NCBI RefSeq assembly: GCF_026151205.1 | Contig: NC_087076.1 | Location: forward strand, 21,632,828 to 21,696,827 | Source: Bolinopsis microptera | Lineage: Eukaryota > Ctenophora > Tentaculata > Lobata > Bolinopsidae | DNA: 64,000 bases | Direction of reading: 5' to 3' | Part shown: piece after piece, positions 30,701 to 56,268 of the stretch | Layout: each line of letters begins with the position of its first letter | How positions within the stretch are numbered: position 1 is the stretch's first letter | Notes under the pieces: model-generated | What the model was told of the DNA's origin: nothing | Database searches by the model: none | What the model saw: the letters and a program-made list of their open reading frames with translations, nothing else | Program-made: the position numbers and the translations under genes

Positions 30701-33368
30701 GTAATCTTAGTAACCTACTGCTCGTTGGTACATGGCAACCAATATAATAACACTTATGAGTTATGGCCAACAGTCATCCTCTTGGCACGGAATGTTAGTG
30801 AGGGATCAAAATTTGCCACAATATCCGCCAAGTTTGCAAAGTTGACAGATTGGGCAATTACAGCTGATAGATTAGAGTAACGTACTGACATCAGACAGGA
30901 TCAACCACGTTAAATGTAAGAAATATAAAGAATTTGGTTATATTTTGGTACAGATAATGGTTAGAGGTCTGACTTGCTGACACATACAGTATGTGACATA
31001 CTGTTCTGTCAAGGGAACATATCATCAAATACCAAATCATACTCGCAAATTTCATATTTTGCAAGAAAACGCAAACAAATAACGGCCTATAATAAGAGGA
31101 GTGGTGACTGAGTCGACATACCTTAGTAAGGATAACATTGTAAGGAATGGTCACTCCTTCCTCATCTAACATCTTCCTCTCTTCCTCTGTAATATCTCTT
31201 CCTTTCACCTGTCATAAAACCGAGTCAGATACAACTTATATTCTTAAATATAATGAAAAGAGATAAGTATAACATGAAGCAGTTCCCCAAAGTTCTAGAA
31301 TGTTGTACAGCATAAAAATACAGTTTATAAATCTGCAGTTTATAAAACTACTGTTTATAAAACTACAGTTTATAAAACTACTGTTTATAAAACTACTGTT
31401 TATAAAACTACAGTTTATAAAACTACAGTTTATAAAACTACAGTTTATAAAACTACTGTTTATAAAACTACTGTTTATAAAACTACTGTTTATGAAACTA
31501 CTGTTTATAAAACTACTGTTTATAAAACTACTGATTATAAAACTACTGTTTATGAAACTTACACTGCTGCACCGCAGATCGTCAGTATTGACCCTGCCTC
31601 TATGTGAGATCCTGCCTGTAGTGTAGATCCCAGTACGTTGAGGTATGTTCACCAGCACATCGTTATCAGCTCCTGAAGAGTGAAGACAATACAATGAAGG
31701 TACAGTATAGGTACAGGTACAGGTACAGTATAGGTACAGTGGGGTACAGTACAGGTACAGGTACAGGTACAGTACAGTACAGGTACAGGTACAGGTACAG
31801 TACAGTACAGGTAGAGTACAGGTACACTGTACTGTACAGTACAGGTACAGGTACAGTACAGTACAGGTGCAGGTACAGGTACAGGTACATGTACAGGTAC
31901 AGTACAGTACAGTACAGGTACAGGTACAGGTACATGTACAGGTACAGGTACAGGTACAGGTACAGGTACAGGTACAGGTACAGGTACAGGTACAGGTACA
32001 GGACACAGGTACAGGTACAGGTACAGGTACAGGTACAGGTACAGGTACAGTACAGTACAGTACAGTACAGGTACAGGTACAGGTACAGGACACAGGTACA
32101 GGTACAGGTACAGGTACAGGTACAGGTACAGGTACAGTACAGTACAGTACAGTACAGTACAGGTACAGGTACAGGTACAGGTACAGGTACAGGTACAGGT
32201 ACAGGTACAGGTACAGGTACAGGTACAGGTACAGGTACAGGTACAGGTACAGGTACAGGTACAGGTACAGGTACAGGTACAGGTACAGGTACAGGTACAG
32301 GTACAGGTACAGGTACAGGTACAGGTACAGGTACAGGTATAACAGTAGTGGGGTGTAGAAGATAATAAGCATTAGAAGCACCGTGTTTAATTTATCAGGG
32401 TTTACGAATCATTCGATACTTGTGAATTCAGAGGTATGACTTAGACATGATAAGATTAAGACGTGTCCTATTAGATTATTATCTTGGGTATTTTATACTT
32501 AAAGTTTTCCGAGAGCCAGCATAACCCGCGTATTGTTATAATAATATTATTAGGCCTTACACTGTGCTTTCAGCAATACTCATATAACTCCCTTCTATGT
32601 ATACTTTAATATATTATCGTGGTCTCATATTTTTCTAAATGCAGGGGTTCTGACGAAGACGTACTTAATATAAAGTGTAATTAGTTGTAGTGGTACAGTA
32701 TCTTTATATACTTTTTATTGAGACACAAAGGTTTTAACCTGAACATTCCTACCTGAGGGTTTGTTAAGGAAGATGTCTACATTGAGGAGGTTGTTGTTGA
32801 GATTCAGTGGATCTCGCTCTTCATCTGAGTTAATGGAGTACCTGTCTGCCCCGGACGAGTCAGGACTACCTCCATCACTTAGCAGCTCCTGGTGGTATTA
32901 CATGTTATTTGTATCGTAATTGTAATACATACTAATAGCACCTGATGTTGAGAAATGTTTTCATCATTGTGTTAGAAACCATCTCATGGACAGTTTCCTC
33001 CTACCTTTTTCACCATATTATTATCTTGGTCTACATCAGGATCAAACTCCCAGAGGTCTCGATTTCCTCCTGCTAGTATCTCCTTCTGAACAAATTAAAA
33101 ATAATTATCGACATCTGATAATATTTTCAACATATCACGGAGAGGAAGGAATGAATTTTAAAATCTGCAGAGTAAGAGTAATGTGCAATTTTTGACAATA
33201 TCTGTCTGATTAAAGATAACCCCAGATGCTGTACCAACTCACCACTGAAAAGGTTGATGTATCATCAACAGGAAGATGATCCAAGAAGAAGTCCAGCTCA
33301 GCGCCTGGCATTGGCAGATCGGATGATATCGCATCATCAAATAGGTGGTCTATGACGCTATCTGCCAT
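18722..33368 (-). CDS. CREB3-like ER-anchored bZIP transcription factor, complete, 10 exons
   Basis: CREB3/OASIS family: held in the ER membrane and released by site-1/site-2 proteolysis to enter the nucleus. Exons, 5' to 3' on the minus strand: 33368-33243, 33085-33005, 32888-32753, 31672-31563, 31208-31122, 26278-26172, 25950-25882, 20545-20464, 20256-20169, 18882-18722. All phases agree, giving 348 residues. Order of domains: acidic N-terminus ([17 protein letters not shown], 18-34). Next is the family-specific ATB segment [17 protein letters not shown] (about 157-173). The basic region follows, with [20 protein letters not shown] (about 188-207), then a leucine zipper (to about 245). The membrane segment [17 protein letters not shown] (264-280) spans the exon 8/9 junction. 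After it, RSLL at 299-302 fits the S1P RxxL consensus in the lumen. The intron between exons 7 and 8 holds a 76-bp satellite. Among CREB3L1-4 I cannot assign an orthologue. Confidence 0.93.
20925..21213. repeat. Left flanking direct repeat of the 76-bp array
   Basis: This segment, containing GAGGAGATAACCCAT and GCACTGACTGGACGTGGTTA, recurs in the same orientation at 24244-24545 with moderate divergence. The two copies bracket the 76-bp satellite. Confidence 0.8.
21268..24150. repeat. 76-bp satellite array in CREB3-like intron 7
   Basis: About 38 head-to-tail copies of a 76-bp unit containing GCGTTCTAGGTAACTGGAGA and ACTGTACGGTACAAAGTAAA. One copy (near 22360) is 14 bp short. The edge copies share GTAGCTGG and CGAACAATGCG, while the centre is homogenised to GTAACTGG and TGAACAATACG. 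Repeated 61-65-codon frames on the minus strand follow from the repetition and are not genes. Confidence 0.97.
24244..24545. repeat. Right flanking direct repeat of the 76-bp array
   Basis: Partner of the segment at 20925-21213. Shared blocks include GAGGAGATAACCCAT, GATATAAATCTTAAAGATAAG-like sequence, GCACTGACTGGACGTGGTTA and a G-rich run before GCAATAAT. The short unique stretch at 24151-24243 separates it from the array. Confidence 0.8.
25012..25222. repeat. ~120-bp tandem duplication in CREB3-like intron
   Basis: Two copies of a segment starting AGTGTCTAATCAACT and running through TATTGATATCCTATTGGT to a C-rich CTGC-CCCC end, about 120 bp apart and around 85-90% alike. A small GC-rich patch follows at 25215-25300. 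Confidence 0.85.
25735..25866. repeat. A-rich tandem repeat next to CREB3-like exon 7
   Basis: Irregular repeats of ACAATAAAAAC and ACAGTCAAAAC, 10-11 bp long, lie only about 15 bp downstream (minus-strand sense) of the exon 7 donor. Confidence 0.8.
26591..28107. mobile_element. TTAA-flanked non-autonomous DNA element (~1.5 kb)
   Basis: Both ends show TTAA followed inward by GGCCAGAG and a long G run (C run on the right), then TAA and a GTC-x-ATCGA-like block. This gives terminal inverted repeats with a TTAA duplication, a target typical of piggyBac-type transposition. The interior has no transposase. It contains GAGGTTAA or its complement about ten times between 26725 and 27790. It also has a large imperfect palindrome at 27616-27904, with arms of about 125 bp and a ~40-bp loop. 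It lies in the intron between CREB3-like exons 5 and 6. Confidence 0.75.
28321..28430. repeat. 41-bp tandem repeat, ~3 copies
   Basis: Copies of GGCACATCAATGAGTCTGCT followed by a TTATTATT-rich linker begin near 28321, 28361 and 28402. The last copy is partial. Confidence 0.9.
28431..31121. other. CREB3-like intron 5, 5' part in gene direction
   Basis: Intron without recognisable coding exons on either strand. Two CACGTGAC E-box-like sites (GTCACGTGAC at 30342-30351 and TCACGTGACC near 30366) occur together, so an internal promoter or enhancer is possible but unproven. Confidence 0.45.
31318..31560. repeat. 15-bp tandem repeat abutting CREB3-like exon 4 donor
   Basis: About 16 copies of AAACTACTGTTTATA, with ACAG in place of ACTG in some, run right up to the splice donor of the exon at 31563-31672. 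Frames open across it on both strands reflect the period of three. Confidence 0.95.
31695..32340. repeat. (GGTACA)n microsatellite in CREB3-like intron 3
   Basis: About 650 bp of GGTACA hexamers interspersed with AGTAC pentamers and two GGACAC interruptions. The array grows more regular towards 32340. It lies about 20 bp from exon 4 and about 410 bp from exon 3. Long frames here (up to 381 codons) are artefacts of the repeat. Confidence 0.97.
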
Positions 33369-34327: not shown

Positions 34328-35020
34328 TTAATGGTTGGTTCCATAGTATCGGTCACCAAAATCTCCAATACCGGGAACAAGATACTTGTCATCGTTTAAA
34401 TATCCATCAATATTAAAGGTGATAACCTTCAAATCTGGAAACTTGGCTTGTAATTTTTGCATCCCATATTTACAGCATAATAGATTGACAAACAAGACGT
34501 TTTTGGGGTCAACACCATGCTCAACCAGGCAATCCATTGCACACATGCAACTACCAGCAGTTCCAAGCATCGGATCAACTAGAAGCACAAAGCAATCAGC
34601 TATGTCAGAAGGAAGCTTTTTGTAATAAAATATTGGGTGTTTGTCTTCGCTCTCTTCATCACGTTGAATCAGTATTTTGCCAACTCTTATTCCTGGTTCC
34701 AGCTTACGAAATGCTTCCAGCAAAGTGTCCCCTGCTCTAATAATAGAAACAGCACACAGTTGTTTTGTGCGAGTATCTTCAAGGCCCTTAAAGATCCCAG
34801 TAGGGGTTACAATATCTTGTGGCATCACTGATGGGATAATTGCAAGTGCTTCTTCAGCAAGAATTGTCATGAGCCGATCACCATATATCATGAAATCTTT
34901 GTAACCAGTATTCTTATCACTAATCTTGGACATGAGTAACTTAATGCAATTTAAGTTTTGTCCGATAACAGTGATTGCTTCCATGTTTAAACTGCATTCG
35001 TCCTCTTGATATTTGGCCAT
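34328..35020 (-). CDS. Uracil phosphoribosyltransferase, intronless
   Basis: Pyrimidine salvage: uracil + PRPP to UMP + PPi. The single 230-codon frame starts at ATG 35020 and ends in the family's C-terminus. SIIRAGDTLLEAF (92-104) matches the conserved RAG segment. VLLVDPMLGTAGS (145-157) is the type I PRPP-binding loop. YLVPGIGDFGDRYYGT (213-228) is the uracil-binding motif of active fungal, apicomplexan and bacterial enzymes. Length fits the family. Every other host gene here has many introns, so an intron-free copy suggests a retrogene or a lineage-specific single-exon gene. No frameshift, poly(A) tract or flanking repeat shows recent retroposition. Active-site motifs look intact, unlike vertebrate UPRT-like proteins in which they are altered. 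Confidence 0.93.
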   Translation of the reverse strand: MAKYQEDECSLNMEAITVIGQNLNCIKLLMSKISDKNTGYKDFMIYGDRLMTILAEEALAIIPSVMPQDIVTPTGIFKGLEDTRTKQLCAVSIIRAGDTLLEAFRKLEPGIRVGKILIQRDEESEDKHPIFYYKKLPSDIADCFVLLVDPMLGTAGSCMCAMDCLVEHGVDPKNVLFVNLLCCKYGMQKLQAKFPDLKVITFNIDGYLNDDKYLVPGIGDFGDRYYGTNH

Positions 35021-36053
35021 TGCTTAAGTCCAGTGCAGTGATGTTTGAAGACTGATTTAAAAGCAAAGTTAAAAACTTAAAGAAACTAACAAAATTGAGA
35101 TGACATGATGGAATTTGTGGGAGAGGCTTAAATGTTAAAAAGCCTTCTTCAACTCTCTACACAATAGAATCTGTCCTACCTTATAATATTAAAACTCTAT
35201 ATTGTTTTGATAAAACGGTCATTCAAACAATGTATACATTCAATTAAGTAAAACGAAATTCAAGCGATGCAATTGGCAGAGCACAATCAAATTTAGTGTT
35301 GCAATTGGCATGGAGCACGATACATATACAAGTTTCAAAACACATGATCTACTCGATTATAGGGCAGGGATGAGGTTGTATGAGACTTTTAATAGATGGA
35401 TCTCATGTTTGGCGTCCACCTTCTTTCCTCGGTACCCTACATCGCAGTATCTCTCCTATCTAAACCCTATATTATATAGAATTATCAATTTTGGGCCCTC
35501 TTTTCTACCCGTCAAAAGTAAATACATCAGATCAAAAAATGATGATTTACAAAAACCTTAAAAAGGCAAACACTGCAGAGATAGAAATAAAAAATACAAA
35601 AAAAAGAAATACAAAAAATTGATATGATATTTTTATGTATTCTGTGTAAAATTATCTTTATCCCGGTTGTTGTTTTTTGTTGGGGACCGGCCCGAAGTAC
35701 CAGCCAATGTTTACTCAAAAAATAATATATATAATAAGTGTTATCAATTCAAACTCAAAACTCATACAAGATTAGATCTCATTAAAACGATTAAAATGTA
35801 TATAATAGAGCTTGTCGAAACAAAACATAGCTGAGCACATATAAAGTTGCCTTTAGTTGAAATTATCATATTAATATGCTTTTAGAGTTGTTAGAGTGGA
35901 AACAGGCGCATAGCTACTGCTAGCTAGCTATTCCAAAATTTTTAAAATTTAACGACTGTTATCAGTCGCATAGCGTCATGCCGTTTTTGCTGGCGAATTG
36001 ATGGCAGTGTAACTGAGATGGTATGCAGTGAAATTGATTCTGTGATGGCGTGC
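35021..36053. other. UPRT upstream region and LINE 3' flank
   Basis: The UPRT 5' flank runs to about 35570. From about 35635 to 36053 is probably the 3' UTR/3' flank of the minus-strand LINE whose ORF2 stops at 36054. A 38-bp motif at 35635-35672 recurs inverted at 43090-43127. Confidence 0.45.
35635..35672 (-). repeat. 38-bp repeat, inverted partner at 43090
   Basis: Exact reverse complement of 43090-43127, with core AAGATAATTTTACACAG. A closely related sequence (CCC for CAC) forms both arms of a palindrome at about 56752-56827. The position suits one end of the LINE or of a composite element that includes both LINE ORFs. Confidence 0.8.
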
Positions 36054-39000
36054 TTATGGGACAGAGTTATTATTAGCATTACGGTTGATGTTGCGCTCTG
36101 ATTTCCTTAGTCCCGTTATATTGTATAACATAAAGTTAGGCCATTCGTCTGCAATGCCCTCGTTTTGTTGATCAATGAGCATGTTTTTTATGCACCTTTT
36201 GTAGATGTTAAGGTTGAATAGACTTGGCAAGGAAGTTGCTGCGACACTGTATCTGTTTATTGCTAATAGTGGACCTTTGTAGAATACTGAATTATTGTAA
36301 GGGTGTTTACCGTATTCATCTGACCATAAAGTTGTAAGACTCGAATCCGGATCGGCGACGTTAAATATTGGTGCACTGTTAGGTATTGTTTTCTTTATAG
36401 AGGGAGGCACTAGACTTGGGAAGTTTTTTAGCTTATGTATAAAAACTAATGCGTTCTTCACGATGATACTTTGAACTGTCAATATTTTGTGTACATAGAA
36501 ACCAGACTTGGTACTTGCTGGTGGTGTACCATCTTTGTACCAGTAATTAACAAAACCTGGTAGTATTGCTCTAAGACCCATTTTCTGTTTAACAAATAGT
36601 GTTTCTATATGGGATTTGGCAGCAAAACCCCAGACGAGGGAGCAGTAATTAAGGTGAGACTGCACAAAGCTGTGATATATTTGTAAACGTGCTTCCAGAG
36701 GCAAATATTTTTTAAGTTTGTACATGACTCCAATGTATCTGGCCATTTTCATTTTCATGGCAGAAATATTTTGCGACCAGTTCAGTTTGTTATCTATTAT
36801 AACACCTAAGAAACGGGCTTCTGTTTTTCTTTCGATTGTGACACCAGAAATTACTACATCGCGATAAATGAGGTTTCTTTGTCGAGAAAAGATCATATAA
36901 TTCGTTTTTTTAAGATTTAGAGCTAATCCGTTGTTATCTACCCATTTAACTAAGACATCGCTAAGAATTTTGAGCTTATCATAAACCTCGTTTATATTTT
37001 CTCCTGTTAGGAAAATGTTTGCATCATCTGCGTACATGATGAAATTAGCTATTTCTGATATTTGAGGAAGATCGTTTATGTAGATTATAAAAAGGAGAGG
37101 TCCCAAAATTGAACCTTGGGGTACACCGTAAATAATTGGATTGGCTGAGGATTCAGAGGATCCAATTGATACAAACTGGTTTCTGTTCATAAGATATGAT
37201 TTAAACCAGTTTAAAGCTAGACCTCTTATGCCATAGTGCTCGAGCTTATTCAGGAGTATGGAGTGATCCACAAGGTCAAAGGCTTTGCTAAAGTCAATCA
37301 AGAGGAGCAAAGTAACTTGCTTTTTAGACATTGAATTGAGGATTCTGTCTTTAGCATTAAGAAGTGCATGTTCACAAGACCTACCTGGGCGGAAGCCGTA
37401 TTGATTTTCACAAAGTATATTGTAGGTATCCAAGAAATTTATGACTCGATTGTGCATAAGCTTTTCGTAGACTTTTGAGAAAGTGGCAAGTAGAGATATC
37501 GGTCTGTAATTTTTGATGTCAGTTTTAGATCCACCTTTATGTACAGGAACTACTTTTGCCGTTTTCAAGGCTTGGGGAAAGACCCCTTGTTCGAACGAGC
37601 TGTTAACAACGTGGGCCAATACAGTGGTAAAATTATGACAGCTGTTGGCAATTTTGAGTGGTTGGATTTTGGTGTCAAGAGTAGCTTTATTCTTAAATAG
37701 GTTAATAACGTCTTGAACTTCGGTAGTTGTGACTGGTTTTATGTAGATACTATTTGGAGAAGGGTTACGTAGTGTCCCCTGGGCCCCACCAGGATCGAAA
37801 GTGGTCCTACTACTAATTTCAGATTTAATTTTTGGAGCGATGTTTGAGAAGTGATCATTAAATTTTTCTGCTACTGCTGCCGGAGTGCTGACTTGTCCGT
37901 TTTCGTCCGACAGTTTTATCGATGTAGGTTTGGCTGGTTTCCTATTCAGAAGTCCGTTAATCATCTGCCACTGCTTCTTAGAATTATCTTTGTGTTGTTC
38001 AAAGAATTTTTTGTAGTGTATGTTTTTGGCTTTGTCAACGTGTTTGGTGCAAAACTTTTTCAAACGGTCATATTTTAGCTGGTTCCTATCAACTGGTTCC
38101 TTAACAAAATCATGATATGCCTGATTTTTACGTTCTATAGCTTCTTCAAGCCAGGGCAGTATCCATGGTTTGGGATTAACACGTTCATTTTGTCTGCGCT
38201 CGGACTGTCTTTTTGTCGGGTAGGCAGCGTTATAAATCCTGTTGTAAGCCGAATTTAAACAATCAAACTGCTGGTTAGCATCAGGGGTATTTGTTAGTAT
38301 TACAGACCAATTTTCTTCCATTATTAAATCTCTAAATTTATGGTTGTTGGCCTCATTAAAACTACGTACGTTGGTTTGTGTTGGATTTTGATTATAAGAT
38401 GCGGAGCGGTAACTGCTGGTGGATGTATTATCAAGATTAATTGTTGTAACTATCGCTAAGTGATCCGACAGATCTGTCGTTAATACGTTGCAGCTTATTG
38501 TATCTTCAAGATTGTTCGTGTAGATATGATCAATAAGCGTGGCACTGTGGTCTGTTATGCGAGTTGGACGTGATACAATTTGGATGAAACCGTAAGAGGA
38601 TGCAATATCTATAATGCTTTGACATGCCTGGTTGCTACTGTGCTTCAGTAAATTTAGATTAAAATCTCCATGTAACGTCATATGGTTGCGAGAGTGTCTT
38701 CCCAGGTTGTGAAGCGTACTTTTAAAAATTTCAAGAAATGCTTCAGGTTTTCTAGCGGGAGAGCGATAAACATTTCCAATTATCTTTGTTCTATTATATC
38801 CTTTACACTGGTGGATCTTGATAAATTGAAATTCGCCGCTAGTATTTGAGGGTTCAGGGTTGGGATTGAAAATATCAATTTTATCAGAGTCAGCTACACG
38901 TTTGTGTATGTATATGGCAAGCCCCCCACCTTTACCCGATGTGCGGATGGGATCTTGGATATACGGTTCATGGAATCGATTTAATGTGATGTCGTTTATT

Positions 39001-39539
39001 CCGTTAGGCAATTTTTCTAGTGTGCAGTTAGTTTCGTTAAAACACAATACATCATACTTATCATATATTTCTATATCTTCTCGTAGTTGATCAATATTTT
39101 TGAAAAGGGATCTGATATTCATGGAAAATGTTTTAAGTTGAGAGGATGTCGACCTTTTTACGTTACGTTGCTGTTTATACTGACAGTGAGTTAGGAAAGC
39201 CGAAATGTCACTCCATGTTGAATCCTGGTGCTCTTCATTGGTCATGGCGTCTCCAATAAGATTACATCGACTATTTTGAGCGTATGGATTATAAATAGCG
39301 CAATTAAGCTTATTGTAGTCATCGTAAATTTCATAGTAAGTCGCGTAAAATCCAGGAATAAGACTTTCACAACAGCTTGTACAACCTAAATTTTCCTTAA
39401 AACATTTGACGTGGACGTTGTTTTGGCACCATGAACAGCTGCGGATGTTTTTGGAAGAATAACACCAGCCGCTACAGCTACCACATTTTATTTTGATTTT
39501 ATGACCAGAAGTATCAGTAACATTTCCATTCGCTGCCAT
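36054..39539 (-). CDS. LINE ORF2: PHD-like zinc finger, APE endonuclease and reverse transcriptase
   Basis: A 1161-codon uninterrupted frame of a CR1/L2/Jockey-group non-LTR retrotransposon. Residues about 19-56 form a Cys/His cluster (CGSCSGWC, CSWC, HVKC, CTSC) like a PHD finger. The apurinic-type endonuclease spans about 135-370, with MNIRS, NET (E169), HGDFN (290-294), IDH (336-338) and SDH (358-360). The RT spans about 640-920, with NYRPIS, LIDFSKAFD (D749), YGVPQGSILGP and YADD (826-829). A C-terminal thumb region follows with LGVIIDNKLNW. All catalytic boxes are present without stops or frameshifts, so the copy may be active or very young. The start at 39539 precedes the zinc finger and gives the full expected domain order. 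The predicted product is a nuclear target-primed reverse transcriptase. Confidence 0.95.
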   Translation of the reverse strand: MAANGNVTDTSGHKIKIKCGSCSGWCYSSKNIRSCSWCQNNVHVKCFKENLGCTSCCESLIPGFYATYYEIYDDYNKLNCAIYNPYAQNSRCNLIGDAMTNEEHQDSTWSDISAFLTHCQYKQQRNVKRSTSSQLKTFSMNIRSLFKNIDQLREDIEIYDKYDVLCFNETNCTLEKLPNGINDITLNRFHEPYIQDPIRTSGKGGGLAIYIHKRVADSDKIDIFNPNPEPSNTSGEFQFIKIHQCKGYNRTKIIGNVYRSPARKPEAFLEIFKSTLHNLGRHSRNHMTLHGDFNLNLLKHSSNQACQSIIDIASSYGFIQIVSRPTRITDHSATLIDHIYTNNLEDTISCNVLTTDLSDHLAIVTTINLDNTSTSSYRSASYNQNPTQTNVRSFNEANNHKFRDLIMEENWSVILTNTPDANQQFDCLNSAYNRIYNAAYPTKRQSERRQNERVNPKPWILPWLEEAIERKNQAYHDFVKEPVDRNQLKYDRLKKFCTKHVDKAKNIHYKKFFEQHKDNSKKQWQMINGLLNRKPAKPTSIKLSDENGQVSTPAAVAEKFNDHFSNIAPKIKSEISSRTTFDPGGAQGTLRNPSPNSIYIKPVTTTEVQDVINLFKNKATLDTKIQPLKIANSCHNFTTVLAHVVNSSFEQGVFPQALKTAKVVPVHKGGSKTDIKNYRPISLLATFSKVYEKLMHNRVINFLDTYNILCENQYGFRPGRSCEHALLNAKDRILNSMSKKQVTLLLLIDFSKAFDLVDHSILLNKLEHYGIRGLALNWFKSYLMNRNQFVSIGSSESSANPIIYGVPQGSILGPLLFIIYINDLPQISEIANFIMYADDANIFLTGENINEVYDKLKILSDVLVKWVDNNGLALNLKKTNYMIFSRQRNLIYRDVVISGVTIERKTEARFLGVIIDNKLNWSQNISAMKMKMARYIGVMYKLKKYLPLEARLQIYHSFVQSHLNYCSLVWGFAAKSHIETLFVKQKMGLRAILPGFVNYWYKDGTPPASTKSGFYVHKILTVQSIIVKNALVFIHKLKNFPSLVPPSIKKTIPNSAPIFNVADPDSSLTTLWSDEYGKHPYNNSVFYKGPLLAINRYSVAATSLPSLFNLNIYKRCIKNMLIDQQNEGIADEWPNFMLYNITGLRKSERNINRNANNNSVP

Positions 39540-40279
39540 TTTAAGTTAACTCTTATGCTTGTGGAGGAATTAGAGAATAAAAAATGTATAAATTTATAAA
39601 TAACGTAAAATATATCTATACTAGTGCAAATCAGATTCTTTCACGAGAACCGGAGGTCCTGTATGCTACAGAATCGTGATCTGAGTCTTATCTACTTATT
39701 TGTTAAAAATATTCGCTAAATCAAATGTTACAATATAGTGCCCTTATCTCGATTTTCGGGCTTATCAGTATGATAATATGACTTTACCTAAAGTGTATAT
39801 TAAGTCGTTGTGATTTGTATGTGTGAAATTGTTTCGTTGTGTAGTTTTGTGTGGTGATTTTTGCTATTTAGTTGTTTGTGAAGTTTTCGAAAATACTGTT
39901 GCACTGAACTTTGACTGAGGAAACGTGCTTGATGCTGATTTACCAGAGAAGCTTCTATAATTATTAAATAAAATGTGCACAGTTTTGTTTGGTAATGTGA
40001 AAATGTTTTAGGAAATGTATGGTGGGATGATAAGAGACAAAAATGCTTGATAGTGAAAGAATGTTCATCAGTTCATCTGATAAGCTTAAGAAGATAAGCA
40101 TTTTCGACCAATCAGATCATTTCTTCAAAAATCGATCGTGGTAGCAATCAAATGATGAATTTGGATGAGGAGTGAGGATGTACTGAAAAAGATATGAAAA
40201 TACTTGATGATATGCTTAATTTAAGGGCTTGACAGAAAAGGTTGATTTTTATATAATTAATTCATTTATGGATTAGTGC
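39540..40279. other. Spacer between LINE-associated ORFs
   Basis: 740 bp of AT-rich sequence between the stop of the AlkB-SGNH ORF and the start of the PHD-EN-RT ORF, both on the minus strand. No third frame or terminal repeat is seen. It is long for an ORF1-ORF2 spacer. Confidence 0.5.
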
Positions 40280-42073
40280 TCAACCACGGTGATATCTGAA
40301 AGGACTGTTAGGCTCATGGTGGTAGAGCCACGCACAGTTCCTGTGGCGTGGCAGTTCTGATCCACATAACTTGCCAACGCAGTTGACAAGTTCATATGCA
40401 ACAGCCCTTCTGACATCGTGATGTAAATGGATGCCATGCTTATCATTGCGGTCCCATACGTAGTATGAATGAACCCGCTTGATAACGGCATGGGCATCGT
40501 AAAATGTCAGATTGGGTATCACCCTGGCGAGATTCACCATACATAGATTAAAATCATCAATTTCTCTGTTCAACCAACCAATTCTCGTTAAAGACAAAGC
40601 ACAAAAAACAAACTGTGTGCTTTTGTTGCTCTTACAGCTTTCGACAAGGCGGGGACAAAAGTTATCAGCCAGACTCTTGGCAGATTTTCCATACCGTGAA
40701 AGATCGTTTATGCCACATGAGATGATCACAGTTTTGGCATGTTTGAGGTCATGATCCAAAGAGTCTATGAGCTGGTAGTTCAAACGCTTCTGACAGCGGT
40801 GGCCGGGTATCTGATCGAACAACCATTCAGGTGTTTCACGATGAATAGAGTCATGTATGAATAGGACCCTGGAGTGACGAGACTGAGAGGAGGAGTTCTG
40901 AGCTGGAGGGGCAACAGGTGGTATCCGATGGAGAGCTGGAGGTGCAGGCACAGTGCATGACTCTTGTTGTTTCAGTTTGCGGAAAGTCAGTGAAATGCGT
41001 GGAAACCTTACCGAGATATCGCGGTCAATGCCGTGGCGCCAGTTGTCCTGATCTGCTCGTGACATGACGTAAAGTGAACCGTGCTCAAGTGGAATGTTAT
41101 GCTCGACAAAGGGGCCTACTGTACTTGATATCCTAAGGTTTCTAGGTGCTCCAATCGACACTGTATAAATTTGACTATCCTCCATTATGCTAGGTTCGCT
41201 GTCATTATGCATCGGTATGCCGACCGATCCGTCCTTGTATAAAGTGCAAAGGCAAGTGTAGTTCTCTGGGGTTATGTCAGCGTCCAGTTTTTGCAGTTGC
41301 TCGTACGCATGTTCCAGAGTGGGTGGAAGTGGCCCAACAGAGACAGGATGTGAGGTTCTGCCGTACGTGTAGGGGACGGAGCCATAATAAGTTGTGATAC
41401 GGCCTCCAGGGTGGTGCATGTCAAAGTTTAGCTCACTTGAAACTTTATCAAAAGTTAACTCGGAAAGATCGCACTCTAAAAGTCTTACCGGCGAATGAGG
41501 CATACTTGTAACTTCTCTGGAAGTGTCGAGGTTCTGCGAGGGGGCTTCAGAGATGAGAGTTGCAGTCTGCTGTGTGATGAGGGTGGTCTGTTTCTTCGTT
41601 TCATCAGAGACTTCTTCGATCGCCGTCAGAGCACGTTCTGTTAGATGTTTCACCGCCTTCTCGCACTCCCCATTAACAGTACATGAAAGTAAGTTAGCTG
41701 CCGCAGTTAGACTATTCATGGATTGATCTATATCAACGACTATTTGACGTGTTAGATATTGTTTGATGGCGGCTTGTTTGGTGTCAGGCTTAGTGGCTTT
41801 GCCAGTAAATGCGGAGTCAATTAAACGGAGCCTGTTGTATTCAAAATCTATATCTTCTTTGGAGAGGGTAGGTAAAACGTTTAAACACGTCTTAGCGCAA
41901 AACGTGTAAATTGATGGCACACCAAAGCCCAACATACCGAGGGAGGGTGCCTCCGTGTCGGAGGGTGACCCGGAGGCAGCAGGTTTAGTGATACTGTTCT
42001 TCCTAGCAGGAGTCTTCTTAGCAGCAGGAGTCTTGTTAGCAGCAGAGGTCGACTTGTTAAGATGGCCGGACAT
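40280..42073 (-). CDS. AlkB-type 2OG-Fe(II) oxygenase fused to SGNH esterase, likely LINE ORF1
   Basis: A 597-codon intact frame. The N-terminus (1-40) is basic and Lys/Pro/Ala/Ser-rich. Residues about 60-180 are helical-looking. About 225-367 is an AlkB-type dioxygenase: CTLYKDGSVGIPMHND carries the HxD metal pair (H289, D291), followed by YTVSIGAPRNL, HGSLYVMS, NWRHGI (H347, third metal ligand) and RISLTFRKL (R359 and R365, 2OG-binding side). A Pro/Ser linker follows. About 402-570 is an SGNH/GDSL hydrolase: FIHDSI (S409 nucleophile), ISCGINDLS (G454, N456) and HGIHLHHD (H549). The Asp normally just before the GIH motif is H546, with D544 two residues earlier. Esterase-bearing ORF1 proteins are known in CR1-like LINEs. 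Orientation and proximity to the PHD-EN-RT ORF suggest one element; a domesticated or separate gene remains possible. Confidence 0.85.
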   Translation of the reverse strand: MSGHLNKSTSAANKTPAAKKTPARKNSITKPAASGSPSDTEAPSLGMLGFGVPSIYTFCAKTCLNVLPTLSKEDIDFEYNRLRLIDSAFTGKATKPDTKQAAIKQYLTRQIVVDIDQSMNSLTAAANLLSCTVNGECEKAVKHLTERALTAIEEVSDETKKQTTLITQQTATLISEAPSQNLDTSREVTSMPHSPVRLLECDLSELTFDKVSSELNFDMHHPGGRITTYYGSVPYTYGRTSHPVSVGPLPPTLEHAYEQLQKLDADITPENYTCLCTLYKDGSVGIPMHNDSEPSIMEDSQIYTVSIGAPRNLRISSTVGPFVEHNIPLEHGSLYVMSRADQDNWRHGIDRDISVRFPRISLTFRKLKQQESCTVPAPPALHRIPPVAPPAQNSSSQSRHSRVLFIHDSIHRETPEWLFDQIPGHRCQKRLNYQLIDSLDHDLKHAKTVIISCGINDLSRYGKSAKSLADNFCPRLVESCKSNKSTQFVFCALSLTRIGWLNREIDDFNLCMVNLARVIPNLTFYDAHAVIKRVHSYYVWDRNDKHGIHLHHDVRRAVAYELVNCVGKLCGSELPRHRNCAWLYHHEPNSPFRYHRG

Positions 42074-42149
42074 GATAAAATCAAGCAGTTTCTTATCAGC
42101 AAGTCAGTGCACTTGTGAAAAGATTAGAGAGCAAAAATGTTGATGCGTA

Positions 42150-42240
42150 ATGTAAAGTAAAAATGATTGGAATGAAATAAAAATGATTGGAATGAAGTAA
42201 AAATGATTGGAATGAGTAAAAATGATTGGACAAGTAAAAA
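42150..42240. repeat. ~17-bp tandem repeat upstream of AlkB-SGNH ORF
   Basis: About four copies of AAAAATGATTGGAATGA, the last ones shortened, 75-165 bp upstream of the ORF start. It is a candidate 5' UTR or promoter repeat of the LINE. Confidence 0.8.
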
Positions 42241-47613: not shown

Positions 47614-50600
47614 TCAATGAAACAAGAAATTCAATGAAACAAGAAATTTAATTTTAGCACATTTTACAGAATAAAAAGATGTAAAACAATTCATAAAATA
47701 TAATGCCCATTTGGTGTATGACTTTTTGTCCTTGACTGCTAGTTTGGTTTTGGAAGGACAGGTAACTAACGGGGCAAGGAATGCGCGTGCCTGAAAGCTT
47801 TTGCACACACCGAAACGCTAGTTCAGTTAGGTTTTTAGAGACAGGGCTCATTTTAGGACTAGAAGAAATTTGTTAGTAGACATTAGGGGTTCTGTTTATA
47901 GTTGTTACTATAGGTTGCAGTCTTGTTGTGACAAAAAGTCTACACTAAAACATGCTTTAGTTTATATTGTGTGGTTCAAGGATATAAATGTGGCTTCAAG
48001 GTGGATATTAAAGAGCTTGCGAAAGATTATGGCCTTTGTATCAATGGTTATAATAAGCTATAAATATCTTAAACTATACAGTGCTAATTAAAAATTTCTT
48101 TATACTTCATTCTCAGATTAGATTTAAAAATTCAAAAAATATACATTTATTTTATTAATACCTTCTCACACATTCTTTACTCACAGGACAAGACTTGGAA
48201 AACAGTAGCCTAGAGGAATTTAATTGAGATGTGTGTGAACAGCCAGTTATAATGTTTGGAAAATAATATTTGTGCAGTCAAAATCTTTTACGGTCCAATC
48301 AAGCAGGGCGTGGTTATGCTGATTGGCTAATAGCGCACTTTTAAGTTTTCCTCGCAAGCACATTACACTAGTAGTAAAGTCAGTCATTCTGAACTTTGGG
48401 GTTAAAATGTTAAAAATTTTGGTTGACCTAGTGTTGTGGTTGTCAGGTGGGTCTACCTGACAGATAAGAAGGCAGGGTTTCCTAGACGAACATGTGTAAC
48501 CCTCATATAGGGATATTGGAGCACGGAATTTCATTATCTTGTAGAGCTCGAGGTAACTGTGGTATGTATAGAGATTTTGTATAGCTAGAATATTATTATG
48601 CTTGAATATCGGTTTGGTGTGTTCTTTTATGAAAAATTTTTGGTCAAGTTTCTGGTGTCCTATAGGCCTAGTACGTGCACAAGTCTTAAACTTATCAAGG
48701 TACGCCAGCCTATCACCAAATAGTACTCTGAGACAGTACTTCTGAGCAGTAAATATTGAGCTTATACGTTGCTTAGCTGCCCCACCCCATACAGATATAC
48801 AGTAGGAAAGATGTGATTCGAACAGAGTATAATATAATTGTTGATGTAGAAATTCTGGAAGGGAGCAGCGAAGTCTACATAAAGTGGATGTGGAATGATT
48901 TAGGGTTCGCTTAAGAGCTTTAATGTGATCTTCCCATGATAGGTTCTCGTCAATTATAACACCCAGAAATTTTGCGGATGAAACCTTTTTGATTGGATAG
49001 TTGTCTATAGTTAGTACAGGTTCAGGGTGTGATAAAATCTCTGACTTAGAACCTGCCATGTTGGGTTTGAAGTGTATGTAGCAGCACTTGGACATGTTTA
49101 TATGTAACTTATTCGCTCTCATATAAGACTGTAATGATGACAAAAGCTCATTTCCTCGTTCATATGCCTCACATTTTGTTTTGCCGACAACAAATATATT
49201 AGTATCATCAGCAAAGGTAACAAATGATCCTAGTTTAGAACTGTTTGTGATGTCGTTCATATAAAGAAGAAATAGGAGAGGTCCAAGAATTGAACCCTGT
49301 GGGACACCAAATTGAATAGATAGGGTATCTGATTTTTCTCCTACAACTTCAGTGTATTGTTGCCTGTTTGTTAAGTAGCTTTTTATGAGGTTATTTGCAA
49401 CTCCTCTCACTCCACATCCCTCTAATTTTATAAGAAGTGTTGAATGATCGATGGTGTCAAAAGCTTTGCTAAGGTCAATGAATATTCCTAAAACATGATT
49501 CTTAAGTTTAAGAGATTTCGTAATTAAATCTACAGAGTAATTGACTGCATGCGATGTAGAGTGAGATTTCCTAAATCCAAACTGTGTCTTCGATATAACT
49601 CCCTGGGAGCTAACAAATCCGTATATTCTAGAATATATGAGCTTTTCAAAGATCTTACCGAAGACGGACAGTGTGGAGATAGGACGGTAGTTCTCGATTT
49701 CTTCTGGGTTACCTTTCTTATATACAGGTGTTATTTTACCAGTTTTCAGGACATCAGGAAATATACCTTGGGTCATAAGGATATTGAAGTAATTCGATAA
49801 TACAGGTGCAATTACATGAGATGACTTTTTTATTACACTTATGGGAATGTCACTGGCTTTACCATTTTCGAACTCTCTTATGATTTTCAATATTTCGTTC
49901 GAGGAGCAATCTTCTAACCTAATATTTTTTTCATTTCTTGGGTTCAGGAAGTCATAGAAAGTTTTCATGGGTAATATAGGCAGGCCATTAGATAGATTAT
50001 TCAGTGTCTCATTCAGCTTTGGTGCGATAGAGACAAACCAAGCATTGAATCCATTAGCAATTGCTCTTCTATCAACTATTCTTTGGTTATCAATGATAAA
50101 TGGGGGCTTGGTTTGCCTCTTCTTTTTGCCTCTGAGTTCGTTAATAATTTGCCAGGTTTTCTTGCTGTTTTCACAGTTGTTTAGAATTTCGTTACAGTAA
50201 TGCCAACGTTTGGCAGCTTTAATGATAGCTTTGAGCATCCTACGATAATCACTAAATACTTGGTATAGCAAGATATTACCACCAGGGTTCTTATTGGTAA
50301 CGGTGTCAGACCACTCCTTACGTAGTTCATGCTTTCTTTCTACAGACTGGATGATACTGTCTGTAATCCATGGGTTAAGTTTGGGAGTTCTTTTTGTCAC
50401 TTTCGGTACCTCCAGTTTGCAGTGTTTGTCGAGTGTCTGGTCAAAACATGCCGTAAACTCATCAAATTTTGTTGAAGGAGTGAGCTGGTTTACCTTTACC
50501 TCAAGTTCAGTTACAAAGCTTTTCAATTTGGAACTTGAGTAATCATAATAGCGGACATGTTTCTGAGGCTCTGTACTGCGAGGGGTCTCTACTGAAGTGA

Positions 50601-50800
50601 AGGTAAATATAGGGGCATGCTCACCAAGCCGTTCTTCAATAACACCTGATAAGACTATATTCTCAATTTTATTTGTTAAAATGTTATCGATGCAGGAACT
50701 TTTACAGTTTTGACGAAAATGTGTTGCAATGGAGATAGTCGGGTAAAAGCCGTTTCTGTATAAAGTATCCTCAAAGTTGGTCACCCAGCACCCTTTTTTT
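47614..50800 (-). mobile_element. 5'-truncated LINE, CR1/L2-like, with long open RT frame
   Basis: The open frame at 48247-50784 (845 codons) begins inside the endonuclease: the tail with IDNILTNK and EHAPIF is present, but the N-terminal catalytic half is gone. The RT is complete: NYRPISTLSVFGKIFEKL, FIDLSKAFD, FGVPQGSILGP, FADD (524-527) and a LGVIIDENLSW block. The first codon of the frame is GTG inside the truncated endonuclease, so no natural start exists here. The break lies near a T run at about 50795. The 3' UTR runs to 47614 and ends in AATTTCTTGTTTCATTG repeats, a CR1/L2-like short-repeat end. It is a different family from the 36-42 kb LINE. It stopped ~190 bp short of the presenilin start. 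Confidence 0.9.
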
Positions 50801-50991
50801 AACCCACATTGTATAAAAATATGACTAATCTATCTTTCTGATTTTAAGTTATCAACTAATCAGGATATTATATTAATTGTATGTAAAACATTAGGAGAGA
50901 AGTGTTGCCAAGCTAATCGGCAAGTAAGCATTTATTGTAGTGCAATATTTTCACTGCATTCTTATATCAAATCAATTATCAAGGTATCAAT

Positions 50992-53111
50992 ATGTCTTCA
51001 AATGTGGCTGTGGGTCCTACCCAAGAAGAGGAACCAGATGTCCCAGAAAGAGTTGAAGCTGAAGATGATGATGCTGAAGAACAGGAAACACTTAAATATG
51101 GGGCTAAACATGTGATGATGTTGATAGTTCCAGTTTCGCTTTGTATGGTACTTGTGATTGTAACCATACGGGTTATCACCATGTACGATATTGGTTCACA
51201 ACCAACCGTCTACTTGGTTTACACACCATTCAATGAACAAAATCAATTATCAACAGGTTGGCATCTGAATGTAAATTAAAATTAGCTTAAAGTTATATCT
51301 TGTGGTCATTATAACCACCCGGGCACCGTCTCGGTTTACAATGCAGCATGTGATTAGATTTGCTTCATATCCTGATATTATATTGCTCAATATGTTGACA
51401 GTAATCGAGGTTCCACTTAGGTTCACCTATAAGTGATGCTGTTCTAAACATGCTTATAGTCCTTGGTCTAGTAATATTCATGACTTGCATCCTGGTTTTA
51501 CTCTACAAATACCGGTGCTACAAAGTCATTGAGGGATGGCTTTTCTTGTCCTCTTTAATACTCTTATTCATGTTTACTTTCCTGAACTTGCAAGAGGTAA
51601 GTCCTTTCATGTAATATACTGTTTATTAACAATGTGAGTAATAAACAGAGTAGCAGACTTTATAGTTTTTATTATAATGATGCACATAGTTTTGTATAGC
51701 TTTTATTATCATGTGTGATTTTAATAATATTCAATTTCTTATTTCAATAAGACATTCCAAGAACCAAGTAAACCTATTGTTTTGTATTATTAATTACATT
51801 CACAACTTTTTGTGATGTGAACATCAAATTATTTTCAGATTGTAGTTCGTTTTAACTTTGCAATGGATTATATTACTATTGCCCTAATAGTCTGGAACTT
51901 TGGTGTGATGGGAATCATTAGTGTTCACTGGAAAGGACCCTTGATCCTTCAGCAAGGCTACTTACTAATCATCAGTGCCATGATGGCACTTGTTTTCATC
52001 AAGTATCTTCCAGAGTGGACTCTTTGGTTTATTTTAGGTATGGTTTCAGTTTCAGATCTCAAGTTCAGCAACCATTTTCTCAGCTGGGTTGTCATTCTAA
52101 CCAATAGTCCAGCTGATAATAACATTTCAAATTGTGTCTTTATCAGTACCTGTCAGCTGTACCATCTAGTTACACTTATAATAATATGTTCCTGTAACAG
52201 GTGGAATAGCAGTATACGACCTGTTTGCTGTGCTCTGCCCCAAAGGACCACTGCGTATCCTGGTCGAAACAGCAGAAGAGAGAAACGAACCCATATTTCC
52301 CTCCCTTATCTACTCCTCCACCATGATGTGGACCATCACGACAATGGCGGACGGAGAACCAGTGAGTAGCTACAACCCGCTGAATAACTCCACTGGGAGC
52401 AGCGCTTCTCCTCCCGAACGGGCTCAGCCAGAGATGGTGCGTGATTTATCTTTTGATTGGAGGAACCTTGGAGAGTTCCGTTTTTGATCTGATAGTTTAA
52501 ATCACAGTGTTATCTCTCTATTACTGCTGTTGATTGATATTTTAATTTCGGTCTTCATTCAAAAATAAATTTGCACTTTAATCATGCGTGATTATCCTAC
52601 TCAAATTAATGAGTCCTACTCAAACTAATGAATTATCTTGACTGTTGAAGTGATCTCTAATTTGCACTAAATCATGAATTTTGTTTTACAATTTAATAAT
52701 ACGTTTACAATTTAATGATACGTATATTACACAACTTACTGTGCCAGAGACCTTGAAAATAATTACATTCGTGATTCCTCGATTAACCCCTACTTCTACC
52801 TTTTACCCTTTACCCCTTACCTACAACAGGAACCAGAAGAGCAAGGAGTAAAGCTTGGTCTGGGAGACTTCATCTTCTACAGCGTGCTGGTGGGCAAGGC
52901 AGCTACCGCAGACGATTGGAACACGGTGATGGCCTGTTTTGTGGCTATTCTGATAGGACTCTGTCTTACTCTACTGATATTAGCCATAGTCAAGAAGGCT
53001 CTTCCTGCCCTTCCCATCTCCATATTTGTTGGAATTATCTTTTATGTGTGTACACGATGGTGTATTAAGCCCATGTGTGATCAGATGGCACTTTCACAAG
53101 TTTACGTTTAG
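50992..53111 (+). CDS. Presenilin, catalytic subunit of gamma-secretase, complete, 5 exons
   Basis: Intramembrane aspartyl protease that cleaves Notch-type and other single-pass proteins within the four-subunit gamma-secretase complex in endomembranes and the plasma membrane. Exons 50992-51256, 51421-51596, 51839-52037, 52201-52436 and 52830-53111 join in phase to 385 residues. The acidic N-terminus is followed by [19 protein letters not shown] (TM1), [13 protein letters not shown], and [20 protein letters not shown]. The first catalytic Asp is in [14 protein letters not shown] (D220). The second is in GLGD (D305). PALP is at 351-354. The protein ends in a hydrophobic C-terminal tail. It is shorter than human PSEN1 (467) because the N-terminus and the cytosolic loop (about 262-297, Ser/Asn/Pro-rich) are short. 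AATAAA at 53234 is a plausible poly(A) signal. A truncated LINE lies head-to-head upstream. Confidence 0.97.
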
Positions 53112-54268: not shown

Positions 54269-56268
54269 ATGATCCCAGCACAAGGTAGAATGATAGGTGG
54301 GCTGAGAGGTGTGGCCCTCTGTAGAGCCTGTTCAAGACAGTACACCGTGGTCGGGTTGGACTCTGTAAGTGAAATGAACCGTGTCCCCTCCTCTATTGTC
54401 CTGGCTAGTTATCACAAGAACGGTATTCCTCCTCCCCGACCACCTGTCATAGGTTTGCCTCATCTGTGCCCTTATTAGGAGATCTATAAGTTTTAATTAT
54501 TCAAGTAATTTGAACTTAAAACGTTTTTTTTTTCAAAACAGAAAATAACAAAACGTTCTCTCGCAGATATTAAGTCTAGAGATGAGGTAGCAAAGTTACG
54601 AGAAGCTGGCCACATTACAGGAGGAATCCTGGACAAAGTTATGGAAATGGCCCAGGTTTGATCAAGTTTTTATCAGGCTTTATCTTTCACACGTTGTAGC
54701 CTCAATCATCCTACATCAAGAATATTATTATTATTATTATTATTAAGTAAAACCTGTTGCACCTGAGCATAATCCTCTTCAGATGAGTGGTTATGGCTTA
54801 TTCTAGATATATATTCTCAAAGAGCCATAAGAACACAGATGTGAACCCGATTCAATATTCATAGTGTCCTCACTCTTCCCTCCCCGGTCAGGTGGACATA
54901 ACAACAGACGAGTTGGACAAGTTCGGGCATGACCAGATAGTGACACAAGGAGCTTACCCCGCTCCCCTCAACTACAGAGGCTTTCCCAAGTCTATCTGTA
55001 CCTCCGTTAACAATGTTCTGTGTCATGGCATACCCAACAGCAGGCAGCTACAGGACGGCGATATCATCAGTATTGATGTTTCTGTGAGTGCACTATATTG
55101 TACTGTATGTTTATATTGCACTATATTGCTCTTTAGTGCACTTTATTACACTATATTGGACTTTATTAACAAAACAAAGATTCAAATTTCAACAAACTCA
55201 ATAATTTAAATGTTTTTGGCATTTTCTCAGTTAATAAAGCCTGTTATTATAGTTGAAAATATTAAATTATCTATAACAATTATACCTGGACCGTAACCAA
55301 GCTGCAAACCCCCAGATATTCTACAAAGGAGTATTTGGTGACTGTTGCTCCACCAAAGTAGTAGGAAAAGGAGACAGCATCGCCCACCAACTTACCGCAG
55401 TAGCTAAAGACAGCACTTTGGCTGCAATCAACCAGTGTAGACCAGGAGTGAGGATTTGTGCTGTTGGTAACACCATCAGGTAACTTTTAGATTTGTTAGA
55501 TAACATACTCGTTGGAATTTTACTTTTACAAATATTATTACTGTTACAGACACTGAATAGTGCGGCTTTCTTGGGCTAAGTACATCATATCATCATGTTG
55601 CATTAGTTATTAAACTACAATTCAATTGAAACTCTAATAATATTTATTATTTTACCCTAGAAATAATAACTTAAGTTCAGAATTATCAAACATAACTCAT
55701 CACAATAACATCAATAACTTTAACCCTATAATTATAAGCATAGCTCTGGTTACTTACACATTATGATGAAGATGACGTAATATTTTACAGTGATCACGCA
55801 GACGAGGCTGGGTTCAGTATCTGTAAGGAGTTTATAGGACATGGTATCGGCTCCTATTTCCATGGGTTACCGGAGGTTTATCACTACACCAACAACCACG
55901 GTCCAATACTCCGGCCCGGGATGGTTTTTACTATAGGTATGATTTCATTATAGTAATTTATCAGCTGTGTTCAGCTGAATGTGGTAGTACTCATTCTTCA
56001 GAGACCAATTCGTATTCTCACTCATTTCAGCATTTTCTTATTATGTTACCTATGTTGAATTATTCCCTATAATGACCTACATCTTAAAGAACCTAAAATG
56101 ACAGTCTTATATTTGTCAGAGCCTATAATAATGGAAGGGCGGGACGAAATGCGAATATTATCAGACGGGTGGACAGCCGTGTCCGCGGACACTAAACGGG
56201 CTGCTCAGTTCGAACACACCATAGTTATCACGGACAATGGCCCCGAGATATTATCCCCCCATAGATAA
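54269..56268 (+). CDS. Type 1 methionine aminopeptidase, mitochondrial class (METAP1D-like), complete, 6 exons
   Basis: Removes initiator Met; the D class acts in mitochondria. Exons 54269-54452, 54567-54655, 54892-55083, 55316-55479, 55791-55936 and 56120-56268 join in phase to 307 residues. The acceptor at 54565-54566, not the earlier AG at 54540, is the one that keeps frame. The Arg-rich, acid-poor N-terminus suits a mitochondrial presequence. The N-terminal SH3-binding zinc finger of cytosolic MetAP1 is absent. Signature YRGFPKSICTSVNNVLCHGIP contains H136. Metal ligands: D153 (SIDVS), D164 (FGDCC), H227 (GHGIGSYFHG), E259 (FTIEPII) and E290 (QFEHT). The segment after D164 reads CCSTKVV where relatives have TSETF-like sequence. 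The in-frame stop at 54248 makes 54269 the first possible ATG. Confidence 0.95.

Follow-up and report, generated by a model that had tools for sequence, protein, structure and literature searches.

The window considered here comprises 64,000 nt of the genome of the ctenophore Bolinopsis microptera (contig NC_087076.1, positions 21,632,828 to 21,696,827, forward strand), and its minus strand carries a long interspersed nuclear element (LINE). The first open reading frame (ORF) of this element, ORF1, encodes a protein (ORF1p) that combines a long predicted helix, a dioxygenase fold of the ALKBH2/3 type and an SGNH fold, and which travels together with an ORF2 for endonuclease and reverse transcriptase (RT). 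The element and its parts are located as follows (window positions; 2OG, 2-oxoglutarate):

35670..42165, minus strand: LINE element, delimited by the limit of the block common to other copies, by the tail sequence and by the mostly unrelated 5' flanks
40280..42073, minus strand: ORF1, 597 aa, with disordered N-terminus, long helix, AlkB, Pro-rich linker and SGNH (reading frame, Pfam and AlphaFold2 model)
41555..41788, minus strand: long predicted helix, possible coiled coil, ORF1 residues 96-173 (one 78-residue helix in the AlphaFold2 model)
40967..41503, minus strand: AlkB-type 2OG-Fe(II) dioxygenase, ORF1 residues 191-369, with H289, D291, H347, R359 and R365 (profile, structure and alignment comparisons)
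40358..40876, minus strand: SGNH hydrolase fold, ORF1 residues 400-572, with S409, N456 and H549, H546 replacing the triad Asp (alignment and fold comparisons)
39540..40279, minus strand: spacer between ORF1 and ORF2, 740 bp, with internal ORFs of at most 45 aa among those of at least 25 aa listed
36054..39539, minus strand: ORF2, 1161 aa, with Cys/His cluster (PHD-like), APE-type endonuclease and RT (reading frame and Pfam)
39360..39491, minus strand: PHD-like Cys/His cluster, ORF2 residues 17-60 (pattern recognized by eye; Pfam gives C1_1 at E 0.33, not significant)
38460..39119, minus strand: endonuclease, ORF2 residues 141-360 (PF03372, 9.5e-06)
36795..37526, minus strand: RT, ORF2 residues 672-915 (PF00078, 5.4e-38)

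The order of the element is hence a short 5' leader, ORF1, the spacer, ORF2 and a tail, whereby the 5' end lies about 92 nt ahead of the ORF1 ATG, with partial 5' repeats farther upstream, and the 3' end reads ...GGGCCGGTCCCCAACAAA(A)n, a tail seen in nine of the 14 window-type copies described below (L009-L015, L017, L018). APE-type endonuclease and RT were found together in ORF2, downstream of ORF1 (PF03372, PF00078), and the 597-aa ORF is thereby the first ORF of a young LINE, which by its domain layout is putatively CR1/L2/Jockey-like. Among the best 120 of 3611 ORF2 relatives, two proteins of Mnemiopsis leidyi were identified that are 53-54% identical to ORF2.

The genome (264.65 Mb, 232 contigs) was scanned for further copies of ORF1, and 47 candidates yielded 40 scored DNA matches, among them 14 full-length copies at 97-100% identity, the window copy counted, and 16 matches at 72-75% identity, nine of which were sampled and constitute a second family (B). 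About 10 kb were retrieved around 25 of the 40 matches, i.e., the 14 window-type copies, two at 80% and 86% and the nine of family B. In 24 of these 25 copies ORF1 is followed by ORF2 sequence in the same orientation, of which L016, L022 and L026 keep a mere fragment, whereas none is detectable beside L024; in nine of the 25 both ORFs are uninterrupted. A preliminary description of this DNA had placed the ORF "beside a LINE", had proposed that it is a retrotransposon ORF1 and had suggested a search for adjacent AlkB-SGNH and RT ORFs elsewhere in the genome. The linkage to the LINE stands but had been understated, as the ORF is the LINE's own ORF1, and the proposed identity is upheld by the multiple copies, by the ORF2 sequence accompanying them and by the purifying selection reported below.

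The 5' flanks are unrelated across the 14 window-type copies, except for two pairs, L009/L021 (one 132-base match at 86%) and L019/L020 (379 bases in common at 99.7%), and most copies are therefore separate insertions. L019/L020 probably result from one event that was duplicated, the alternative being two insertions in one repeat. Since three copies possess identical ORF1 sequences, several insertions are very recent. Three other origins were considered and rejected. Segmental duplication as general origin of the copies is ruled out by the unrelated 5' flanks, L019/L020 being a possible exception; a single-copy, syntenic host gene, one of the cases which the preliminary description had set against its own proposal, is ruled out by 14 full-length window-type copies of at least 97% identity, window included; and a chance ORF is ruled out by 30 database proteins with E <0.001 together with the substitution rates given below. 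Likewise, the explanation that AlkB is a chance neighbour or a captured host ALKBH gene useless to the LINE retains next to no probability: the genome contains a plain ALKBH3-like ORF (L035; ALKBH3 E 4.6e-40), hence a host source for the AlkB domain may have existed, but the multi-copy association with ORF2, the purifying selection and the 29 strong database homologues all stand against it, and the copies already refute it.

Between families A and B (L009 compared with L027, L030 and L032), synonymous divergence (dS) amounts to about 1.8-2.0 for ORF1 and about 1.0 for ORF2, with protein identities of about 60-61% and 84-85%, respectively; ORF1 may have been exchanged between the two LINE lineages, although dS is saturated here. 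One family-B copy, L026 (C6:20553964-20563880), combines an uninterrupted ORF1 with an ORF2 reduced to its last ~47 residues and is possibly a non-autonomous derivative.

Using ORF1 as query, 30 proteins with E <0.001 were obtained among 7997 scored candidates of the protein database, 29 of them strong; these 29 and the window protein form an alignment of 30 rows, from which the remaining protein, P0030, was left out. The AlkB iron ligands H289, D291 and H347 as well as R359 and R365, the 2OG/substrate residues, are invariant in 30/30 rows; E293 is present in 29 of the 30. The earlier claim of an intact 597-residue ORF with these residues followed by an SGNH domain is confirmed. The same five residues are kept in the 550-aa lineage, in P0030 and in the Helitron described below. 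Structure and profile comparison identified the AlkB fold as a double-stranded beta-helix with ALKBH2/3 nearest. Within the SGNH domain, the catalytic S409 and the oxyanion N456 are likewise invariant (30/30 rows) and H549 is found in 24 of the 26 rows having a letter, while the position of the catalytic Asp, three before the His, is occupied by His (H546) in the window, by Asn in 19/27 rows and by Asp in 1/27. As the triad Asp is replaced, hydrolase activity is less certain than dioxygenase activity. The ratio of nonsynonymous to synonymous substitution rates (dN/dS; NG86, window copy against three family-B copies), approximate since dS of 1.3-2.8 is saturated, was 0.26-0.28 in the N-terminus, against 0.09-0.11 in AlkB and 0.06-0.08 in SGNH; ORF1 is under purifying selection.

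For the function of ORF1p a mechanism is suggested which, taken as a whole, we consider on balance somewhat probable. ORF1p would assemble on the element's own RNA, as other ORF1 proteins do, and within the particle AlkB would oxidatively strip lesions of the N1-methyladenine (m1A)/N3-methylcytosine (m3C) type from the RNA and from new single-stranded cDNA, a process expected to leave reverse transcription unblocked and the copy intact, whereby the SGNH domain would either anchor the particle on membrane lipids, a role put forward for the LINE ZfL2-1 of fish, or retain residual hydrolase activity. The preliminary description had likewise supposed that such an ORF1 would demethylate its own RNA or cDNA, and had seen in this a possible protection from methylation-based control or damage. 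ORF1 proteins are generally presumed to bind and package element RNA (PMC3905857). Both m1A and m3C were reported to interfere with reverse transcriptases and to be removed by AlkB, and m1A to affect capture by the R2 RT on which OTTR relies (PMC12140624); an AlkB domain riding in the ribonucleoprotein would therefore benefit the element directly. The ORF1 AlkB resembles ALKBH2/3, the enzymes of m1A/m3C-type lesion repair, more than ALKBH5/FTO, the erasers of N6-methyladenine (m6A), hence repair, or the clearing of reverse-transcription blocks, appears likelier than m6A erasure.

Several points weigh against this mechanism. The substrate preference of the AlkB domain (m1A, m3C or m6A; RNA or DNA) is unreadable from sequence, and the SGNH catalytic Asp is missing in the window, the sole sign of decay. 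Further, F217, a Phe in 23 of the 29 rows having a letter, aligns in the profile column of ALKBH2 F102, the aromatic finger residue, and might point to a duplex DNA substrate. The related ORF1p of ZfL2-1 was reported to boost retrotransposition in HeLa cells while being dispensable for it, and neither its N-terminal construct nor its esterase gave stable complexes with oligo-A RNA (PMC3905857). Finally, the mark stated for the AlkB domain of orchid Ty3/Gypsy elements is m6A (PMC9289625), which by analogy keeps an m6A eraser in play. Here, AlkB would strip m6A from element RNA and so allow escape from m6A-dependent RNA control, as proposed for those elements; RNA binding and in vitro demethylase activity were reported for the orchid Gypsy AlkB (PMC9289625), and the ORF1 AlkB profile weakly matches a DNA N6-methyladenine demethylase (8hb2, E 1.3e-5), but given the closer likeness to ALKBH2/3 we regard this function as unlikely. 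Marginally less likely still is a role on the DNA side, whereby AlkB would repair 3mC/1mA in the integrated copy or the target DNA and so make up for the 3mC which DNA methyltransferases (DNMTs) introduce. The co-evolution of DNMT1/3 with ALKB2, attributed to 3mC as a further product of DNMTs (PMC9246332), the alignment of F217 with F102 and the presence of AlkB in proteins of a Helitron, a DNA transposon, are in line with it, whereas the presumed packaging of element RNA by ORF1 proteins (PMC3905857) is not. A non-catalytic use, in which the AlkB fold would just bind nucleic acid, a function for which other esterase ORF1ps lack a domain, would suit both the report that none of the esterase ORF1ps in RepBase has RNA recognition motif domains (PMC3905857) and an SGNH partner short of one triad residue; with five metal/2OG residues invariant in 30/30 rows and kept in the 550-aa lineage, P0030 and the Helitron, it is rated as quite improbable.

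For the wider AlkB family of this genome, a scan with the Pfam AlkB profile (PF13532) gave 151 matches from 587 first-look candidates (150 scored); the scan favours the best copies and includes host AlkB genes, and the matches listed are stop-free, bar the last. Frame sizes are about 551, 593, 611, 646, 676, 707, 777 and 843 aa and more. A class of 550-552 aa has many copies, of which one place was read (L037): in its protein, AlkB (1.8e-18) is preceded by an N-terminus that looks helical by eye and followed by an SGNH-like end (E 0.0009, below cut-off) whose first block is without the usual GDS. In the same orientation, an RT (6.6e-25; L038) lies some 2-3 kb farther downstream. From these two stretches, read separately, the class is likely to be a second LINE lineage with the AlkB-SGNH pairing. 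P0030 (654 aa), which matches the window ORF1 at 27% identity across 37% of the query, comprises a Cys/His cluster resembling a PHD finger and possibly a coiled coil (both by eye), AlkB, a weak SGNH match and a DxxH motif (by eye).

The largest AlkB frames of the genome are Helitron proteins. At C10:16874403-16884548 (L034, L036), a single stop-to-stop frame of 3388 aa encodes in order SGNH (5.9e-6, below the Pfam cut-off), a Pro/Ala-rich linker, AlkB (3.3e-21), Rep (PF14214, 6.8e-23) and a PIF1-type helicase (PF05970, 4.5e-22), the latter two in the frame of AlkB. Its C-terminus looks protease-like by eye (SCGYIA...HGVHWYT). Of the 41 genomic matches to Helitron_like_N, six share frame length, strand and neighbourhood with an AlkB match (C3, 3321 aa; C10, 3388 aa; C12, 2459 and 3366 aa; C9, 3226 and 2225 aa); the SGNH partner was examined in the C10 copy alone. 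Outside the window family, the AlkB-SGNH pairing recurs at a divergent LINE-like locus and, with the order reversed, in a Helitron. In an AlkB tree of 49 rows, the 32 LINE-type AlkBs, P0030 included, fall on one side of a branch with a Shimodaira-Hasegawa-like approximate likelihood ratio (SH-aLRT) of 87, not significant, and the approximately unbiased (AU) test rejects none of the groupings LINE+Helitron (p 0.45), LINE+host (p 0.35) and Helitron+host (p 0.55); for the LINE and Helitron AlkBs, one capture and several are therefore both compatible with the data. Relatives of ORF1 were also sought in IMG/VR, where none of 21 pattern matches was confirmed, and in bacterial and archaeal genomes, which gave no pattern match.

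LINEs, Helitrons and RNA viruses that carry AlkB all have a single-stranded nucleic acid stage; the Helitron machinery is unlike that of LINEs, yet also passes through a single-stranded intermediate. The SGNH-AlkB arrangement in the Helitron would, by analogy, fit a role on such intermediates. Tentatively, and with a chance which we put somewhat short of even, AlkB and SGNH may serve the mobile elements of this animal lineage as an accessory module made up of two enzymes, joined as AlkB-SGNH in LINE ORF1s of two or more divergent lineages and as SGNH-AlkB in Helitron transposases, which would guard the single-stranded RNA/DNA stage from N1/N3 methylation, as a selfish counterpart of direct-reversal repair.

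Among known systems, plant RNA virus polyproteins carry AlkB, as revealed by structure matches, and like the LINE these viruses have a single-stranded RNA stage, though they are different replicons. Compared with human ALKBH2/ALKBH3, the window AlkB shows about 26% identity and differs in its fusion with a helix and an SGNH domain and in being the product of a retrotransposon. The zebrafish element ZfL2-1, with an esterase-type (type IV) LINE ORF1, shares a helical N-terminus, in the window ORF1 a possible coiled coil, followed by SGNH, and an ORF2 with endonuclease and RT (PMC3905857, PMC4120745), whereas in the window ORF1 AlkB is inserted between helix and SGNH and the catalytic Asp is replaced. 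The transposon-specific H191 of ZfL2-1, four before the oxyanion Asn, corresponds to Ser in the window ORF1 (S452, 30/30 rows; the position derives from motif spacing), and the ZfL2-1 esterase was not found among the 50 matches listed in the SGNH-domain comparisons. The orchid Ty3/Gypsy elements are likewise retrotransposons that gained an AlkB-type domain, with demethylase activity shown, but are long terminal repeat (LTR) elements with an ALKBH5-like domain in an additional ORF, and with no mention of SGNH in the text consulted, instead of a LINE with an ALKBH2/3-like one; AlkB in an LTR retrotransposon is hence already published (PMC9289625). PMC4120745, where five types of LINE ORF1 are distinguished, contains neither "dioxygenase" nor AlkB (0 occurrences each), and esterase ORF1ps were called unique among ORF1ps for their enzymatic function (PMC3905857). 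No AlkB-bearing LINE was described in the titles and abstract openings listed by a partial literature search. The part taken as new is the LINE ORF1 architecture, which was not found described and is more surprising given the Helitron parallel. LINE ORF1 proteins are mostly viewed as RNA chaperones, with the function of the esterase type an open question, and here a second conserved enzyme fold, of nucleic-acid demethylase type, resides within ORF1 of a young multi-copy family. If the AlkB activity holds true, this would suggest that N1/N3 methylation of transposon RNA/DNA limits transposition enough for a repair enzyme to be self-carried, and it would become directly testable how RNA/DNA methylation contributes to the control of transposons; RT-linked demethylases may also serve the practical sequencing of modified RNA.

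Elsewhere in the window, a second LINE fragment lies at 48247-50829 on the minus strand with an RT ORF (PF00078 4.8e-37), in which no endonuclease match was obtained and upstream of which no ORF1-like ORF was noticed. At 31236-32381, long open frames on both strands consist of simple dipeptide repeats (LY, TG, QV), by which this stretch is read as microsatellite DNA, not genes. A uracil phosphoribosyltransferase ORF (PF14681) is located at 34328-35020, minus strand. Presenilin gene exons (PF01080, four pieces) at 50941-53108, plus strand, directly adjoin the second LINE fragment, and a Peptidase M24 exon, presumably methionine-aminopeptidase-like, is found at 54865-55206, plus strand.
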